Assembly (NCBI GenBank): GCA_018004935.1
Contig: JAGNBF010000070.1
Coordinates: forward strand, 1 to 40,486
Length of the DNA stretch: 40,486 nt
From: Chloroflexota bacterium
GTDB lineage: Bacteria > Chloroflexota > Anaerolineae > Promineifilales > Promineifilaceae
Direction: 5' to 3'
The position numbers and the translations under genes were made by a program. How positions within the stretch are numbered: the stretch's first letter is position 1; every line of letters starts with the position of its first letter. The notes below the pieces were generated by a model, which made no database searches, was not told where the DNA came from, and was given only the letters and a program-made list of their open reading frames with translations. Positions 1,991-36,399 of the stretch are shown one piece after another.

Positions 1991-3328
1991 ATGGTGTATA
2001 GGCAGGGGCACACAATCAGCCGTTCCCGGTTGATGGGTCTCTTTTTCCTGGTACTTGTTTACAGTTCACTGCTCCTGGTGGCCTGCACACCGGATTTACC
2101 CGAAACACCGCAGGTAACGACAGAAGCCCTGTTCACGCCTACCCCCGGCCCCTCGGCAACACCAAACGAAGGGGGCACGCCTACCCTTACCCCTCCTGTC
2201 CCTACCCAGGCCCTGCCTGATGCTGTGCCATTGCTGGCTTTTACCCCTGTCGCCAATAATCTTCCTCCTGCTAACCCCGAACGCCCGGTCCTGCCGACTT
2301 ACACCCCCTTGCCCTACCCCACCCCCCTCGTTGCCGGTACAGGCGTTCGCCCTGATGAGGTGGTGATATACCGTGCGCCTGATTATGGCCCTACATCGGT
2401 GCCGGAGTTGCGGCCGCCGCCTTATCCTGTGCCCCTGGCGCTCCACCCGGAAGACCATTACGTTCTTATTCGCCCCATTCCCTCGGGTTCCCGTAATTAT
2501 GACCTGGAATGGTACCCCTATGGTAACGATGTTCTGGTTCCCGAGTTTTACCCGTTCCGGGTGCATCATGGTCTGGATTTCCCTAATGAGACAGGGACAC
2601 CGATTCTAGCCGCTGGAAGTGGTACGGTTGTTCATTCTGGCCCACTGCCCAGCCCACGTGACGGTGTGAATTATTATGGTAACACAGTCATTATTCAGCA
2701 TGACTGGCAATGGCGCGGCCAGACTGTATACACTTTGTATGCACATACCCTGGAGTTATTTGTAGCGGTGGGGGATTATGTACGGCAAGGGGATCTTATT
2801 GCCGGGGTGGGTTCATCTGGGGAAGTCAGTGGCCCCCATTTACACCTGGAAGTGCGGCTGGGGCAGAATAATTATTACCGTTCGCGCAATCCTTCGCTGT
2901 GGTTATCGCCTTATGAAGGGTGGGGTATTCTGGCTGGGACTTTTACGGATAGCCGGGGGTTACCCATCCAAAACGGGGTGGTGGTAGTGACTCCTGTCAA
3001 TGAGACGGATCCCATCCGTATTGTTCACACGTACCTGAGTGATTCGGTGACGCCGGATGATTATTGGCAGGAGAATTTTGTGGTGGCCGACTTACCGGCT
3101 GGTCGTTATTTGGTGACGTTGTTTGTGGCGGATCGCAGTTATGAACGAAATGTGGATTTGTTGCCGGGGCGCACTAATTATATTGCGGTTCAGGCGGATA
3201 TCGCTTATAGCGCTCCGCCTACGCCTACTTTTGTGCCCACGCCAGTGCCCCCTATTACTAATACGTTGCCTATTACGGTAACTGGCGGTATTACGAATAC
3301 GGTTCCGATTACGGGAACGTTGCCGTAG
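1991..3328 (+). CDS. M23 (LytM-type) peptidase lipoprotein
   Basis: Lipoprotein signal with lipobox LLVAC (Cys32), then a long Pro/Thr-rich spacer (about residues 35-130), then a peptidase M23 domain. The zinc-site motifs are visible: HHGLD at residues 192-196 and HLH at 283-285, with the usual GTVVHSG, YAH and G(E)VSGPHLHLE blocks between. M23 enzymes cut peptide cross-bridges in peptidoglycan or act as non-catalytic activators; the ligands are present, so activity is plausible. After the domain comes a beta-rich region (about 310-405) resembling a carboxypeptidase-regulatory or Ig-like fold, and the protein ends in a low-complexity Thr/Pro/Ile tail with repeated ITNT and PIT motifs. The ATG start is 8-10 bases behind a purine-rich ribosome site. 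Expected location is the outer face of the cytoplasmic membrane. Confidence 0.9.
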   Translation: MVYRQGHTISRSRLMGLFFLVLVYSSLLLVACTPDLPETPQVTTEALFTPTPGPSATPNEGGTPTLTPPVPTQALPDAVPLLAFTPVANNLPPANPERPVLPTYTPLPYPTPLVAGTGVRPDEVVIYRAPDYGPTSVPELRPPPYPVPLALHPEDHYVLIRPIPSGSRNYDLEWYPYGNDVLVPEFYPFRVHHGLDFPNETGTPILAAGSGTVVHSGPLPSPRDGVNYYGNTVIIQHDWQWRGQTVYTLYAHTLELFVAVGDYVRQGDLIAGVGSSGEVSGPHLHLEVRLGQNNYYRSRNPSLWLSPYEGWGILAGTFTDSRGLPIQNGVVVVTPVNETDPIRIVHTYLSDSVTPDDYWQENFVVADLPAGRYLVTLFVADRSYERNVDLLPGRTNYIAVQADIAYSAPPTPTFVPTPVPPITNTLPITVTGGITNTVPITGTLP

Positions 3329-3389
3329 AGGATGATACTGGTATAGCTTTATGAACGTACGATGTATGGTTTTGTGATACAGCAATTTT

Positions 3390-3508
3390 GGCGTGGTTCA
3401 AAAGTCGGCAAACGGTGCTTAACACTTTGTAGGGCGATTTGGTAAATCGCCCACGAGACGATTTACCAAATCGTCCTACAAATTTGTAAAGTTGACCTGA
3501 ACCATGCC
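3390..3508. repeat. 119-bp MITE-like element (family A), copy 1
   Basis: Differs from 25846-25964 at only one position that I can find. The ends are inverted (GGCGTGGTTCA left, TGAACCATGCC right). It is flanked by a perfect 8-base direct repeat GCAATTTT (3382-3389 and 3509-3516), as expected of a target-site duplication. Inside are two palindromes around GGCGATTTGGTAAATCGCC and CGATTTACCAAATCG. It is too short to code, so it must be mobilised in trans if at all. Confidence 0.85.
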
Positions 3509-3559
3509 GCAATTTTCAATTTGGTTTGCTCCTGGCGTTTGCCGGGTTTTGTTTTCTTG

Positions 3560-3765: not shown

Positions 3766-3835
3766 TTCAATAAAGCGTGGTGAAGTTGGTTGAGCCTGTC
3801 GAAACCAACGGCCTTCGACCTGCTAGGGCAAAATT
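3766..3835 (+). repeat. GTTGAGCCTGTCGAAACC repeat (family E), partial
   Basis: Shares CAATAAAG(T/C)GTGGTGAAGTTGG and the following GAGCCTGTCGAAACCAACG with 25992-26090 and 38029-38104. The right end is truncated and runs into the end of the QueA-like gene. Confidence 0.6.
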
Positions 3836-4911
3836 AGATGCAAATCGCCGAATTCGTGCCAGAGGTAACGCTCTTGGAGCGCGGCCGCGTAGGTGTGGTG
3901 GAGATGTTCGCGGCCGCAAATTGCTTCTAGCATCATCAGGTGGGTGGCACAAGGTTCATGCAGGCCCGTGAGCAACCCATTGACGGCCCGTACCCCCCTC
4001 TCGGGGGTGAGAAACAGATTGGTGTAGCCAGTTCCGCCATAGGTGTATGCATTTTCATCGGTTACTGTTTCCAGGGCGCGGACGGCGGTGGTGCCTACAG
4101 CAATAATTCTGCGGCCGCTGGAACGAGCGGCATTGACCAGACGGGCTGTTTCACCGGAAACTCGATAATACTCCTCATAAGGTTTTTCGTTGTCTTCCAG
4201 ACTGGCAACACCGGTGTGTAAGAGTAGGGGGGCGATTTGTACCCCTTGAGCGACTAACCGGGTAATTAGTTCTGGGGTAAAGGCACGCCCTGCCGAAGGC
4301 ATCTCGGCACTACCCGGCTCCGTGACATACACTGTTTGATAATAATTCAGGGGCCAGGATTCGGGTACGTAGTAGTAGCGAATGGGGGTTCCGTGCCGGT
4401 TCAGGTAGCTGATCAGGTCGTCTGGTTTTTCCAGGCGTAAACTGGCTAACCACAATCGTTTGCTCCCGTTGTAGGGTGTGTGCAAGAGGAGTGAAGCACC
4501 GCCGGGTAGGGCATAGGTTTCATGGGCAATGGCGTCAAAGAAGGGTTTGGTCAGGCCATTAGCGGAGGGCGAACCGCTTGCGGCCGCGGCTCCTTCTACC
4601 ATCTGGCGCACTTCTACCGCCCATAGATCACCGGGTAGGTGGGTGGAAAGGTGAATCTTCATTTCTGTGCCATCAACACGAGTCGCTGGAATGGCGGCAT
4701 TGAGGGTGCCGCTGGTATTGATTACCAGAACATCACCTGCCTGCAAAAATCGGGGTAGATCATAAAAATGGGTGTGGTGAATCTGATGGTTGCGGGCATA
4801 AGAAACCAGCAAACGAACACCATCGCGACTCAATCCCCGGGCTTCGGCCGGAGCGTTGGCTTCCAGTTCGGGGGGAAGGGTGAAATCAAGTTTGGTCATG
4901 GTTGTAAACAT
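3823..4911 (-). CDS. queA: QueA-like S-adenosylmethionine:tRNA ribosyltransferase-isomerase
   Basis: 362 residues. QueA transfers and isomerises the ribosyl group of SAM onto 7-aminomethyl-7-deazaguanine at tRNA position 34, giving epoxyqueuosine. Family landmarks are the N-terminal FTLPPELEA followed by PAEARGLSRDGVRLLV, the VLVINTSGTLNAAIPA block, VGTTAVRALETV, and near the end TNLFLTPE followed by VNGLLTGLHEP. The sequence is closest to the divergent QueA-like form rather than the classic enterobacterial one, so substrate identity is less sure than family. The frame could start at 4968, but the extra N-terminus is not family-like; ATG 4911 or 4899 (MTKLDF) fits better. No strong ribosome site decides between them. 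No other queuosine gene is in the window. The SDR gene upstream on the same strand is separated by a repeat element. Confidence 0.85.
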   Translation of the reverse strand: MFTTMTKLDFTLPPELEANAPAEARGLSRDGVRLLVSYARNHQIHHTHFYDLPRFLQAGDVLVINTSGTLNAAIPATRVDGTEMKIHLSTHLPGDLWAVEVRQMVEGAAAASGSPSANGLTKPFFDAIAHETYALPGGASLLLHTPYNGSKRLWLASLRLEKPDDLISYLNRHGTPIRYYYVPESWPLNYYQTVYVTEPGSAEMPSAGRAFTPELITRLVAQGVQIAPLLLHTGVASLEDNEKPYEEYYRVSGETARLVNAARSSGRRIIAVGTTAVRALETVTDENAYTYGGTGYTNLFLTPERGVRAVNGLLTGLHEPCATHLMMLEAICGREHLHHTYAAALQERYLWHEFGDLHLILP

Positions 4912-4984
4912 GGGATACCTATGGGTAGGGGAATAAGCAGAGAACAGGGACTGTGGCCCATTAACCATTGATCCGTTTTCCTAA

Positions 4985-19860: not shown

Positions 19861-21831
19861 ATGACTATTATGGAACAATCGGCATGGCGTTGGTTTGTGG
19901 CTTTGTTGCTCCTGACGTTGCTCAAAGGCTGGGTTTGGGCTACTGTTTTTCCCCCCTTCCAGGCGGCTGATGAGTTGCAACATCTGGGTTATGCTCGAGA
20001 TATAGCCCGTACTGGCCGCCTCACGGTTATGCCGCGCGATCAATTTACCCCGGAAGAGGTGATCACTCTGGAGATGATTAACCTGACCGGGGTATCGGGC
20101 TACCGGCGGCCGCTGGATTTGTCGCCGGAGCGGGTGGCGGAGTTGACCAGTTTGCGGCAACAACTTGCCGATGCGGATAGGTACGCCGATCCCCGGCACA
20201 TTTTGTTTGCACCCTTTTTTGCCCGGCATCATCCCCCATTTTTCTACCTGTTGGGGGCGGTGGTGGAAAAGCTGGCGCGGCCGCGAGACATGTTTACCCA
20301 TTTGGCCCTGGCCCGGTGGTTGGCGGTTCTGTGTAGTGGTCTGACTGTTACCTTTGCCTATCTGTTGGGGCGAGAACTGTTCCCAGCGCGGCCGCGGCTC
20401 TGGTTGGCTCTGGCGACTACCATGAGCTTCCTGCCCATGATCACCTACCTGAGTGCTGTTTACAGCAATCAGGCTCTGGAAATCACTTGTTTCACCGCCC
20501 TGTTCTGGCTCCTGGCCCGCCTTATCCGCCAGGGGATGAGCGATTGGTTAGGGTTGGCCCTGGGAGTTGCCTGGGCGCTAGGCTTATGGACAAAGGTGAG
20601 TTTATTGGTGCTGGCTCCGGTGCTGGGGCTGGCGTTGCTTTATGATTTGTGGCGAGGTTCGGCGCGGCCGCGGGGCTGGTTGTGGGTTTTCCTGTTGCCG
20701 GTCTTGCTGGCTGGCCCCTGGTATGTGAACTACCTGCAAATGAGCCAGAGTGGTCTGGCCGATGCCCGTCCGGCTACCGCCACCTGCCCTGCCTTACTGC
20801 CCTATCTGCTCAACCTGAATCATGGTGGGCTGGCCCGCAAAATCTGGAATGAATCGTTGGGCATTTTTGGCACCATGGACACATTGTTTCCCACTGTGGT
20901 GAACCAGAGTACCCGTCTGGCGTTTTGGTTGGCCCTGGTGGGTTGGGGCTGGTTGGGCGTAACGGCTCTTAGACGCCAGCGACTCCCATTCGACCGCACG
21001 CAGGGTGTAATGCTGGGTTTGTTGGCCCTGGCCTGGGTCGGTGTGCATCTGTTTTTCCTGCTGATTGGTTATCTGGTTTCCTGCGATCAGACGGGGGAAT
21101 ATGGCACAGGGCGATTGGTAGTTCCGGTCGCGGCCGCGGGCCTGATGTTGTTCTTTGTCGGTTGGTCAGCTTTGGCCGGGCGATGGCAAACCTGGATCAT
21201 TAACCTGGTGGTTCTCACGACCATTGGCCTAAACAGTTATGCTTTGTTGAATCGGATTGTCTGGCGTTATTATGGCCTGCAAGAAATAGTAGCTTATGAT
21301 GAACGCCTCACCTATAGCCAGCCACTCACCCCTGAGCAACCGGTGCGCCAATGTCTGCCAGTGCCCCCCGGTGATCTGGCACGGGTGGATGTGTGGCTTT
21401 ACCAGCCAGGGCAGGCCAGCGGTGAATTGACATTGACGGTGAGTCATGCGGAAGGGCAGGTACTCGTTCAAAGTACGCAACCAAACCGGCGCGGTGGGGA
21501 AGTAATGCCCACCCATTTTCCTTTTTCGGCGCAACCGGTAGAGGGGGAAATTTGTCTGGCGTTTGCGGGCACGTTTAGTGGCCCGGTGCAGGTGTGGACG
21601 GATGGCGACGCGGCCGCGACCTGGGACAATGGCTCCCAACCTCAACCCGGCCACCTGGCCGTGCGTCTTTATCAGGCACTCTCCCTCACAACTTTACCGG
21701 AGCGCATGGCCCTGGTTTCACCCCTGGCCTATCCCCCGATCTTCTTCTGGTTGCTGGGAATGGTCTATGGAACTTTTACGTTGATCTATGTGCTTACCTT
21801 TTTGACGCGATCCAGACTTGACACGTTGTAG
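19861..21831 (+). CDS. polytopic membrane protein, GT-C/DUF2142-like
   Basis: 656 residues with about 11-12 membrane helices. After the first helix comes FPPFQAADELQHLGYARDIARTGRL, the first periplasmic loop with an acidic DE pair that is the mark of GT-C glycosyltransferases and DUF2142 proteins, where it binds the metal or lipid-phosphate sugar. A second mark is FFARHHPPFFYLLGAV (a PP motif after HH). A globular extracellular region (about residues 480-610) precedes the final helix. Probably transfers a sugar from a polyprenyl-phosphate donor to an envelope acceptor; acceptor and sugar unknown. Start is ATG 19861 or 19870. Same orientation as its neighbours; a link with the ABC exporter halves around it is inference from position. 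Six GCGGCCGC octamers. Confidence 0.75.
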   Translation: MTIMEQSAWRWFVALLLLTLLKGWVWATVFPPFQAADELQHLGYARDIARTGRLTVMPRDQFTPEEVITLEMINLTGVSGYRRPLDLSPERVAELTSLRQQLADADRYADPRHILFAPFFARHHPPFFYLLGAVVEKLARPRDMFTHLALARWLAVLCSGLTVTFAYLLGRELFPARPRLWLALATTMSFLPMITYLSAVYSNQALEITCFTALFWLLARLIRQGMSDWLGLALGVAWALGLWTKVSLLVLAPVLGLALLYDLWRGSARPRGWLWVFLLPVLLAGPWYVNYLQMSQSGLADARPATATCPALLPYLLNLNHGGLARKIWNESLGIFGTMDTLFPTVVNQSTRLAFWLALVGWGWLGVTALRRQRLPFDRTQGVMLGLLALAWVGVHLFFLLIGYLVSCDQTGEYGTGRLVVPVAAAGLMLFFVGWSALAGRWQTWIINLVVLTTIGLNSYALLNRIVWRYYGLQEIVAYDERLTYSQPLTPEQPVRQCLPVPPGDLARVDVWLYQPGQASGELTLTVSHAEGQVLVQSTQPNRRGGEVMPTHFPFSAQPVEGEICLAFAGTFSGPVQVWTDGDAAATWDNGSQPQPGHLAVRLYQALSLTTLPERMALVSPLAYPPIFFWLLGMVYGTFTLIYVLTFLTRSRLDTL

Positions 21832-21884
21832 GGCGATTTTGTAAATCGCCCGGCGTTCTCCAGACACAGATGCGAAAGATTTTC

Positions 21885-24472: not shown

Positions 24473-25327
24473 ATGATCCCTCAACACCCCTTTGGCCGGA
24501 CAGGCCATAACAGCACCAGAACACTCTTTGGCGCGGCCGCGCTCGGTCGCGTCACCCAGGCCGAAGCCGATCAAACCCTCGATTTACTGCTCGAATACGG
24601 CGTTAACCATATTGATGTCGCCGCCAGTTACGGCGACGCCGAATTGCGTGTCGGTCCCTGGATGCGTACCTACCGCGATCAATTTTTCCTGGCCACCAAA
24701 ACGGAAAAACGCACCTACCGCGAAGCCAAAGAAGAGCTACACCGCTCGTTGGCGCGGTTGCAGGTGAGTCAAATTGATTTGTGGCAGATGCACATTCTGG
24801 TCAACCCGGATGAATGGCAGGTGGCGATGGGGCCGGGTGGAGCATTGGAAGCGTTTATCGAGGCGCGGGAGCAGGGGTTGGTGCGCTTTTTAGGCGTCAC
24901 CGGGCATGGTGTCACCATCGCCGATATGCACCGCCAAAGCCTGGAGCGGTTTGATTTTGACACGGTGTTGCTCCCGTACAACTATGCTATGATGCAGAAT
25001 CGGGCGTACGCGGCCGCGTTTGCATCCCTTCTCACCCTCTGCCAGGAGCGCAACGTGGCTGTCCAGACAATCAAATCCCTCACCCGTGGCCCGTGGGGGG
25101 ACAAACCCCGCACGCATAGCACCTGGTACGAACCGTTCACCGACCAGAACGAAATTGACACCGCTATTCATTGGGTGCTCAACCGGCCCGGCATTTTCCT
25201 GGATACGGTGGGGGACATTCATCTCCTGCCCCTGGTGTTGGACGCGGCGAGCCGATTTGTGGCGCGGCCGCAGGCCGAACTCGACGCCACTATCGCCCAA
25301 ATCCCTATGGAGCCACTGTTCATGTGA
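24473..25327 (+). CDS. aldo/keto reductase
   Basis: 284 residues. TIM-barrel NAD(P)H-dependent reductase. The tetrad is readable: Asp and Tyr in [12 protein letters not shown], Lys in LATKTEKRT, His in LWQMHILV. The N-terminal part, [19 protein letters not shown], is as in the subfamily of YghZ-like or pyridoxal-type AKRs. Substrate unknown. Start ATG 24473 has AGGAGATACCT in front. The barrel's last part is short compared with the 310-330 residues of many AKRs but the C-terminus looks natural (QIPMEPLFM). Monocistronic by its spacing. Three GCGGCCGC octamers. Confidence 0.88.
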
Positions 25328-25720: not shown

Positions 25721-25845
25721 CCGTGGCTCTACTGTATCGTGTCTTGATTAGAGGTTATCGGTAATAACCGTCCGAAAATTTATGTCAACTGATTGCTCCG
25801 AGGGACAAACCTTCGGCAGGTTTCCAAATGCTATTACCGATAATG

Positions 25846-25964
25846 GGCGTGGTTCAAAAGTCGGCAAACGGTGCTTAACACTTTGTAGGGCGATTTGGTA
25901 AATCGCCCACGAGACGATTTACCAAATCGTCCTACAAATTTGTAAAGCTGACCTGAACCATGCC
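25846..25964. repeat. 119-bp MITE-like element (family A), copy 2 with target duplication
   Basis: Same length and orientation as 3390-3508 with one base difference seen. Flanked by a perfect 8-base direct repeat CGATAATG (25838-25845 and 25965-25972). Confidence 0.9.
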
Positions 25965-25991
25965 CGATAATGTCTTTTACTGTTCTTGTTA

Positions 25992-26115: not shown

Positions 26116-28458
26116 ATGCGTCGAAAGATCCTTGTTTTGCCGTTTGGTCGTATCCTGTTTTTCACTTTTCTCCTCGCGGCCGCTGTCCTGACCATTGGCC
26201 TTAGTCAGAACGTAGCCGCTATCCCTGATGATCCCTCTATCACCCCCAACGACCTGGAAGCCACCCTCGAATTACCCGGCCAATCTATCAGCCAGGTAAC
26301 GGGTGCACCCCTGGCTCTGTATGGTGTTAATTACCCCGTCGCGGCCGCGACGCCTGAAGAAATGGCGCGTCAATACCTCCGTGCCCATGCGGCCACACTC
26401 CACCTGAAAACCACTACTCTGGATGATCTCATCTATCGCATCATGCGCCAGGGGCCATCGGGTACGGTGGTGCGCTTCACCCAGCAGGTAGATGGTGTAC
26501 CCGTCTACCAGGCGGAGATTGCTGTCCACATTAATAACCAAAGCATGGTTACTGCCGTCACCAGCCAATACAAGGAAGGGGCGGAATTGAATAGTACTGT
26601 GCCTACGCTCGCGGCCGCGGCCGCGCATCAGTTAGCCGTAACTCACCTGAACGCCCAGGCCCCATTCGGCTACGACAGCAATACCCTCGTCGTTTACCAC
26701 AACGCCAACAATAACGAAACCCGGTTGGCGTATCAGATTCGCCTCGAACCCTCTGCCCCATTGGGTTATTGGGAACTGCTGGTAGATGCCCACAGCGGTG
26801 ACTTCATCAAAGTAGTCAACCTCGCCGCCGAAGCTGATGATGACAAAACCCCACAACTGGTAGACGGTACAGGCTATATCTTCGACCCCGATCCCCTTTC
26901 CTCAGCCCAGGCCACCTATGGGGATCCTGGTTTTACCGATGGGAATGATGCCACAACCACCCAACTAGATGGCGAACGGGTAACTGTTACGCTGAAAGAC
27001 ATCCAGTTCGATGGTACGAATTACACCCTCATCGGCCCCTGGGCCGAGGTAACAGATTTTGAAAGCCCCTTCAACGGCCTTTTCGCTCAACCGTCTAGTA
27101 CCTTTAATTACAACCGGTTTGATAATGCCTTTGAGGTTGCCCACACTTACTACCACATTGATAACGTCATGCGTTATCTCAACCTCACGTTAGGGTTGGG
27201 CATCGAACCCAGTGCTTATCCCGGCGGCGTCCTCTTCGATCCGCACGGCCTGAACGGTGATGACAACTCCCATTATCTGGGCGGCTCACAACGTGTAGCC
27301 TTTGGTGAAGGGGGTGTAGATGATGCTGAAGATGCTGATGTGGTTATTCACGAACTCGGGCATGGTTTGCATGACTGGGTGACGAATGGTGGTTTATCCC
27401 AGGTCAATGGCCTGAGTGAAGGGATTGGTGACTATGTGGCCCAATCTTATAGCCGAAGCCTGGGTCAGTGGGATCCCGGTGATCCGCAGTACAACTGGGT
27501 CTTTGACTGGGATGGTCACAATTCGTTTTGGGGTGGACGTATTACCAACTATACGGCTATATGGCCCGGCGGCCTGATTGGGCAGATTCATACGGATGGG
27601 CAAATTTGGGCCACCTGTATGATGAAAGTATGGAATGCCGTGGGGCGTGATCTGACAGAAATGGCGCATTGGGAAGGAATTGGCATGACCAACTCCACCA
27701 CTAATCAGAATGTGGCGGCCAATGCGGTTTTCCAGGCGGCGATTGACCTGAATTACCCCACTGCCACACTTCAGGCGATGCGCACGCAGATGCTGACCTG
27801 TGGTTACAGCATCCCTGAAATACCTGTACCAGACTTTGCGATGGGTGCTACTCCGGCCAATCAATCGGTCTGTGTGGGCAACAATGCTGTTTATGATGTT
27901 CAGGTTAGCTCCTTGTTGGGGTATAACCAGACGGTGGTTCTGAATGCCAGCGGTAATCCGGCGGGGACGACGACGGCCTTCTCACCGGCAAGTGGGGCGG
28001 CTCCGTATACCAGTACACTGACGATTGGGAATACGTCCGCGGCCGCGCCCGGTAGTTACAGTATCAATATTGTTGGTGTGGCTCCCACAGCCACCCACAC
28101 CACCACCGTAGGTCTGACCCTGGCTGATATACCCACCACCATTGCCCTCACCGCTCCGGCGAATGGGGCCACCGGGCAATCGCTCACTCCCACCTTTCAG
28201 TGGCAGGCGAATGCGGCCGCGACCAGCTACACTCTGGAAGTGGCTCATGACAACCTCTTCACCCACATTATCTATACTGTCAGTGGGCTAACCGGTACAT
28301 CTCACACCGCCACCACCGCCCTCGATCCGGAGATGACTCACTACTGGCGTGTTCGTGGGGTAAATAGTTGTGGCATCGGGGTTGATTCTAGTACCTACAG
28401 CTTTACCACCCGGGCCGCCGCCCAACTCCTTTATCTGCCGTTTGTCCTAAAACCTTAA
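26116..28458 (+). CDS. secreted M36 (fungalysin)-type metallopeptidase with Ig/FnIII-like tail
   Basis: 780 residues. Signal peptide (MRRKILVLPFGRILFFTFLL to about residue 35), FTP/PepSY propeptide (about 60-250, with VVRFTQQVDGVPVYQAEIAV), then the catalytic region. Zinc site is His412-Glu413-Leu-Gly-His416, with Glu435 in NGLSEGIGDY as third ligand; the extended motif HELGHGLHDW is typical of M36. Next come CSVGNN-like Ig domain (about 575-670, starting DFAMGATPANQSVCVGNN) and a fibronectin-III-like domain (APANGATGQSLTPTFQWQ to YSFTTRA). The protein ends AAQLLYLPFVLKP, a short hydrophobic tail that I recall on many Chloroflexota exported proteins and that may be an export or anchoring signal. 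The start has CTAAGGAGATAAA. A strong terminator follows 25 bases after the stop. Confidence 0.9.
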   Translation: MRRKILVLPFGRILFFTFLLAAAVLTIGLSQNVAAIPDDPSITPNDLEATLELPGQSISQVTGAPLALYGVNYPVAAATPEEMARQYLRAHAATLHLKTTTLDDLIYRIMRQGPSGTVVRFTQQVDGVPVYQAEIAVHINNQSMVTAVTSQYKEGAELNSTVPTLAAAAAHQLAVTHLNAQAPFGYDSNTLVVYHNANNNETRLAYQIRLEPSAPLGYWELLVDAHSGDFIKVVNLAAEADDDKTPQLVDGTGYIFDPDPLSSAQATYGDPGFTDGNDATTTQLDGERVTVTLKDIQFDGTNYTLIGPWAEVTDFESPFNGLFAQPSSTFNYNRFDNAFEVAHTYYHIDNVMRYLNLTLGLGIEPSAYPGGVLFDPHGLNGDDNSHYLGGSQRVAFGEGGVDDAEDADVVIHELGHGLHDWVTNGGLSQVNGLSEGIGDYVAQSYSRSLGQWDPGDPQYNWVFDWDGHNSFWGGRITNYTAIWPGGLIGQIHTDGQIWATCMMKVWNAVGRDLTEMAHWEGIGMTNSTTNQNVAANAVFQAAIDLNYPTATLQAMRTQMLTCGYSIPEIPVPDFAMGATPANQSVCVGNNAVYDVQVSSLLGYNQTVVLNASGNPAGTTTAFSPASGAAPYTSTLTIGNTSAAAPGSYSINIVGVAPTATHTTTVGLTLADIPTTIALTAPANGATGQSLTPTFQWQANAAATSYTLEVAHDNLFTHIIYTVSGLTGTSHTATTALDPEMTHYWRVRGVNSCGIGVDSSTYSFTTRAAAQLLYLPFVLKP

Positions 28459-36255: not shown

Positions 36256-36399
36256 ATTAACTTTTGAACCACGCCCGTTTTTATTTTCACGAGCGGGTGA
36301 ACAGCCTGAAAGACTGTTCTACGGTTCGAGCGTGCTTCTGGAGTCCAACGGTTTTTGAGTTTTTCCAAAGTAATACAGGCATAGAATGGCTACCACAAA

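Follow-up and report, generated by a model that had tools for sequence, protein, structure and literature searches.

The pneumococcal BOX elements have a modular make-up of boxA, boxB and boxC, and the insertion sequences of the IS6 and ISL3 families generate 8-bp target duplications and carry ends starting with GG. Among the bacterial MITEs, RUP, NEMIS, ERIC and Nezha are named in PMC3733652. For Thiohalocapsa PB-PSB1, full IS elements with inverted repeats matching MITE-like arrays are described (PMC10907252). Here we describe a MITE family from a probably uncultured bacterium of the class Anaerolineae (Chloroflexota), starting from a window (the whole stretch of 40,486 nucleotides analysed) that represents the entire contig C40 of genome G000 (8.0 Mb, 229 contigs).

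The window carries two copies of a 119-bp element (Table 1). Their coordinates and the single-base difference between them, as given in the initial annotation, were verified, the sole difference being C or T at position 103 of the element. The inverted ends noted for both copies were likewise confirmed, though as an imperfect inversion: when GGCGTGGTTCA on the left is compared with GGCATGGTTCA, the right end in reverse complement, 10 of the 11 outer bases agree, and the inversion is imperfect further in. Each copy is indeed bordered by its own, private, perfect 8-base direct repeat. Copy 1 is located between convergent open reading frames (1991-3328, plus strand; 3823-4968, minus strand), and copy 2 between two frames on the plus strand (24473-25327 and 26116-28458). 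Of two further places taken for fragments of the element, that at 36261-36275 is a lone left end, whereas that at 21828-21852 is a free inner hairpin, GTAGGGCGATTTTGTAAATCGCCC, with neither MITE end close by; because the hairpin exists elsewhere without the ends, this place was classified as a free-standing hairpin and not as a piece of a MITE end. The statement that the window contains no transposase holds for the 10 open reading frames scanned with Pfam, out of 66 of at least 100 aa.

Table 1. Positions of the element copies and related sequences in the window.
Feature	Position	Strand	Remark
119-bp MITE copy 1	3390..3508	+	100% identical to at least six other places in G000
Copy 1, left 8-bp target duplication GCAATTTT	3382..3389	.	
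Copy 1, right 8-bp target duplication GCAATTTT	3509..3516	.	
Copy 1, left end GGCGTGGTTCAAAAGTCGGC	3390..3409	+	
Copy 1, double-hairpin core GTAGGGCGATTT...AAATCGTCCTAC	3429..3481	+	from the fold and from cores also found without ends; boundaries approximate
Copy 1, right end AAGTTGACCTGAACCATGCC	3489..3508	+	
119-bp MITE copy 2	25846..25964	+	one base different from copy 1
Copy 2, left 8-bp target duplication CGATAATG	25838..25845	.	
Copy 2, right 8-bp target duplication CGATAATG	25965..25972	.	
Free-standing hairpin module without MITE ends	21828..21851	+	
Lone left end (relic)	36260..36275	-	

It is very probable that this element is a non-autonomous DNA transposon (MITE), presumably mobilized in trans by a DDE-type transposase with an 8-bp stagger and carrying a dispensable, exchangeable interior. 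The element is short (119 bp, where MITEs stay under about 600 bp) and non-coding, has terminal inverted repeats and a fixed 8-bp duplication, and exists in many dispersed near-identical copies with empty sites. The MITE identity proposed at the outset is thus borne out by copies, duplications and empty sites; the ends, the copy number, the intergenic bias and the varied interiors are shown as well.

A search of G000 for the left-end 16-mer with up to 2 mismatches gave 212 places (126 plus 86), against 5 (4 plus 1) for the reversed control pattern, and the matches therefore exceed chance. By BLAST, at least seven full-length places with 100% identity (copy 1 and six others) were found among the best 40 of 593 candidates. 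An unbiased sample, consisting of the first 20 kb, or the whole, of 80 G000 contigs chosen without regard to matches (1,159,271 bp), contained 20 elements that had their two ends, and 16 of these measured 119 bp; extrapolation gives about 138 paired copies in the genome. The end-directed sample contained 118 unique paired elements, 96 of 119 bp, together with length variants of 40-330 bp. Searches of the genome, as suggested in the initial annotation, revealed a large family of both-ended copies, most of them with octamers. Compared with the consensus, 13 of the 96 full copies are identical, 27 are one base off and the remainder are up to 17 off, which suggests that the family expanded recently on top of older copies. 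The recent activity claimed before is supported indirectly: no more than one substitution separates 40 of the 96 full copies from the consensus, which is not a direct demonstration of current mobility. In L050 307-1107 (G000:C50:7606-8406) a tandem array of at least 4-5 MITE copies with a period of 125 was observed, with 6-bp CTCTAC spacers between the copies, CTCTCTAC at both outer sides and N runs inside.

Target duplications are present at other copies of the element, too. The duplication was perfect over 8 bp in 15 of the 20 elements of the unbiased sample and carried one mismatch in 2 of the 20, while in the end-directed sample it was perfect in 75 of 118, one-mismatch in 19 and with two or more mismatches in 24, the right end yielding a duplication being preferred in both counts. 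When this preference was dropped, 61 of 83 copies of 119 bp were flanked by direct repeats of 8 bp or more. The duplications are 69% A+T, with G or C at position 1 in 53 of the 75 perfect ones and an A/T-rich middle, and the third base outside the duplication is A or T in 72 of 75 cases on the left and 69 of 75 on the right. Of 50 insertion sites (from those of the 94 elements for which 700 bp of sequence extends to either side), 13 lie inside an open frame of at least 150 codons, as compared with 84% of random positions; long open frames are thus avoided by the insertions.

For detection of empty sites, the flanks of 94 elements were joined, with the octamer kept once, and matched to the examined sequence of G000 itself. 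Uninterrupted relatives were found for 21 of the 94 joined flanks and 19 were kept; two were dropped as artefacts, element 42 because it lies in a tandem array and element 92 because it had matched itself with a gap. An exact single octamer is present in six of the 19 (L005, L013, L021, L056, L059 and L075), with one target repeat common to L056 and L059, and the others deviate slightly at the insertion point or have indels there. All are paralogous sites inside copies of other repeats. Interspersed repeat sequence also lies downstream of window copy 1, and L003 (1 mismatch in 32), L034 (2) and L025 (3) contain this repeat with no insert at the site of copy 1; the window copy is in turn a near-empty counterpart of the L062 insertion. 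Because empty sites were found in copies of other repeats, the insertion is real, and the earlier claim of real transposition is backed both by these sites and by the many further copies. Spread without transposition, mostly as larger repeats recombine or undergo segmental duplication, would account for the flanks common to L056/L059, L063/L078 and L295/L296 and for the tandem array on contig C50, but the octamers differ between most copies and target repeats exist without the insert, so that this is almost certainly not the main route of spread.

The element has a modular interior. Short forms of 40 bp (ends only, L038), 75 bp (half hairpin) and 95 bp (single hairpin) keep both ends and are flanked by a private, perfect 8-bp duplication, and so do and are forms of 212, 216 and 284 bp that contain nested or tandem material. 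A 61-bp form with a perfect 8-bp duplication is an almost perfect palindrome, and a 179-bp form, also with a perfect 8-bp duplication, carries a different palindromic core. The core was found outside MITE ends at 7 places in the G000 sequence examined, position 21828 of the window included (12 matches before the two arms of one site were merged by eye). This core, beginning with GTAGG, finishing with CCTAC and also found alone, resembles two inverted GTAG-tagged REPs, which are reported in Chloroflexi (PMC3733652), as would fit a REP/BIME-like palindrome pair that owes its spread to a Y1 (HUH) transposase of the RAYT type and has incidental ends. The same ends and 8-bp duplications are, however, found on the core-less elements and on those with unrelated cores. 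Target duplications are not known for IS200/IS605-type enzymes, and spread by such an enzyme is highly improbable.

Within the core, 67 of the 96 copies have G-C at the pair 52/78 and 28 have T-A. The alleles of this pair assort freely with position 25 (58/16/13/9) and both core types are seen in free hairpins as well, and because of these two observations the two types are explained by module exchange; we infer that cores are swapped by recombination at the hairpins. It is conceivable, and proposed here tentatively, that two mobile systems, ends and hairpins, have been fused, in which the ends would serve as a shuttle spreading interchangeable hairpins; across genera the ends would then be retained and the cargo replaced from the palindrome pool of each genome. 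L044 is an apparent chimera of the MITE left half and the right flank of another hairpin family. In L028, L079, L046, L067 and L089 the MITE is interrupted at GTGCTTA by members of another repeat family; these inserts are CTTA-flanked where both sides were read, and several carry TCAGGAGACCGGCCACAGC or its complement. The MITE hairpin of L063 and L069 harbours a palindromic element, GGGTGTGTTTCA/GGGTGTGCTTCA..TGAAACACACCC, which has apparently duplicated 9 bp, TTTACCAAA.

The fold of the 119-bp element is very strong, with -61.2 kcal/mol (z -10.25) as RNA and -35.8 (z -8.23) as DNA. Retention of the hairpin for an RNA role, in mRNA stability, in termination or as a small RNA, would agree with this fold and with the joint change of positions 52 and 78, but it is unlikely in view of the following: the other hairpin variants are mostly single and often break pairs, with 94 of 2520 pair cells unpaired; the 52/78 types occur in free hairpins and in free assortment with position 25; and the window gave no Rfam match. 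Among 56 distinct copies a recurrent double change was detected only at pair 52/78; structural selection on the hairpin is thus unsupported, and the strong fold may merely reflect the inverted modules.

In the mechanism that we infer for the family, a DDE-type transposase made elsewhere would bind the two related, non-identical ends (about 20 bp each, with the core GGCRTGGTTCA) and would excise or copy the element, which would then be joined across an 8-bp stagger into A+T-rich intergenic DNA. Repair at the joined site would give rise to the 8-bp duplication, and palindromic hairpins would take the place of the dispensable interior, probably when the element recombines with free hairpin repeats or undergoes gene conversion with them. 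The full IS with the same terminal repeats, sought as the initial annotation had suggested, was not found in G000, the assembly of which collapses long repeats, and no autonomous relative with MITE ends was found in the relatives, viral contigs (24 stretches), phages or plasmids. The Pfam families of IS6, ISL3, DDE_Tnp_1, IS1595, IS66 and IS256 had no match in G000. A survey of left-end sites in G000, leaving out about 80 places with 1-2 mismatches, gave 98 paired elements, all of 284 bp or less, plus 11 unpaired ends that have the appearance of chimeras, nested inserts or relics, none of them showing a second end. No autonomous partner was associated with the 26 GGNATGG-type sites, and none of 125 contig ends had MITE ends running into an unfamiliar interior.

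Identical stubs of about 120-126 bp are common to several groups of G000 contig ends (L337, L344, L347 and L374; L304, L309 and L347; L343, L348, L365 and L366; L340, L366, L371 and L376; L379 and L381), some of them ending in the related motifs TGACCGAACCATAAG and TGACCGAACCGTGAG. These groups are probably collapsed multi-copy elements of G000, and the stubs would mark the failure of short-read assembly to pass longer identical repeats. As candidates for the missing MITE parent they were rejected, since they belong to other elements. The missing transposase weighs little because the assembly loses longer near-identical repeats: a multi-copy IS would drop out, and the element, with its 119 bp just under the length at which the G000 assembly collapses repeats, would survive. 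Absence of a transposase from a short-read metagenome assembly thus proves little.

The exact end pattern GGCRTGGTTCAAAANNNGG is present in 7 of 396 genomes of the class, G000 included, with 129 places in G000, 13 in G012, 19 in G028, 13 in G032 and one each in G302, G309 and G357; the four multi-copy genomes are all among the 31 family members listed. A looser end pattern matched in 7 of 59 genomes, again including G000. Perfect 8-bp duplications flank several copies of the elements of G012 (149-150 bp) and G028 (201-223 bp), and the G032 copies are truncated by contig ends. The subterminal motifs CTTTACAA / TTGTAAAG are recurrent and the cores are different. As judged from these sequences, the ends with 8-bp duplications are present in two other genera of the host family. 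Outside the class, a Gemmataceae record (L202 2933-3151, reverse strand) contains a 219-bp MITE-like element whose ends match in 16 of 20 bases and resemble those of the Anaerolineae family, and which is flanked by a perfect 8-bp duplication, CATCTATA. In a Poribacteria record (L214), GGCATGGTTCAAAA and TGAACCATCCC enclose about 200 bp; this stretch, which lacks an 8-bp duplication, is a possible old relative.

No description of the family was found in the literature retrieved on MITEs in Chloroflexi/Anaerolineae and on modular or palindromic bacterial repeats, or among the titles of the papers listed for the end sequences. The element is of an ordinary kind and well supported, and the degree of core exchange is unusual. 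A large Anaerolineae genome is shown to host a MITE family of high copy number and modular cores, the ends of which are conserved in sister genera; a planctomycete carries a similar element, and the core-less 40-bp elements suggest how little DNA such a transposase requires.

The family has the 8-bp duplication and the GG-starting ends in common with IS6 and ISL3, but neither transposase was found in G000, and the IS6 and ISL3 copies in the relatives have ends different from those of the MITE. With the BOX elements it shares fixed outer modules and a variable inner part, but this part varies among unrelated palindromes, of which one also occurs in free-standing repeats. It agrees with RUP, NEMIS, ERIC and Nezha in being short and non-coding, with inverted ends, many copies and a strong hairpin, and differs from them by its GGCRTGGTTCA ends and 8-bp duplication. 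Tandem MITE-like repeats and stable hairpins are shared with the Thiohalocapsa PB-PSB1 arrays (PMC10907252), for which, unlike in G000, full IS elements with matching ends were found. Finally, the core resembles two inverted GTAG-tagged palindromes of the REP/BIME type (PMC3733652), and in the core alone a palindrome of 20-40 nt carries a terminal GTAG (GTAGGGCGATTTGGTAAATCGCCC with the partner inverted to it), but the mobility of the G000 element follows its outer ends, with 8-bp duplications.
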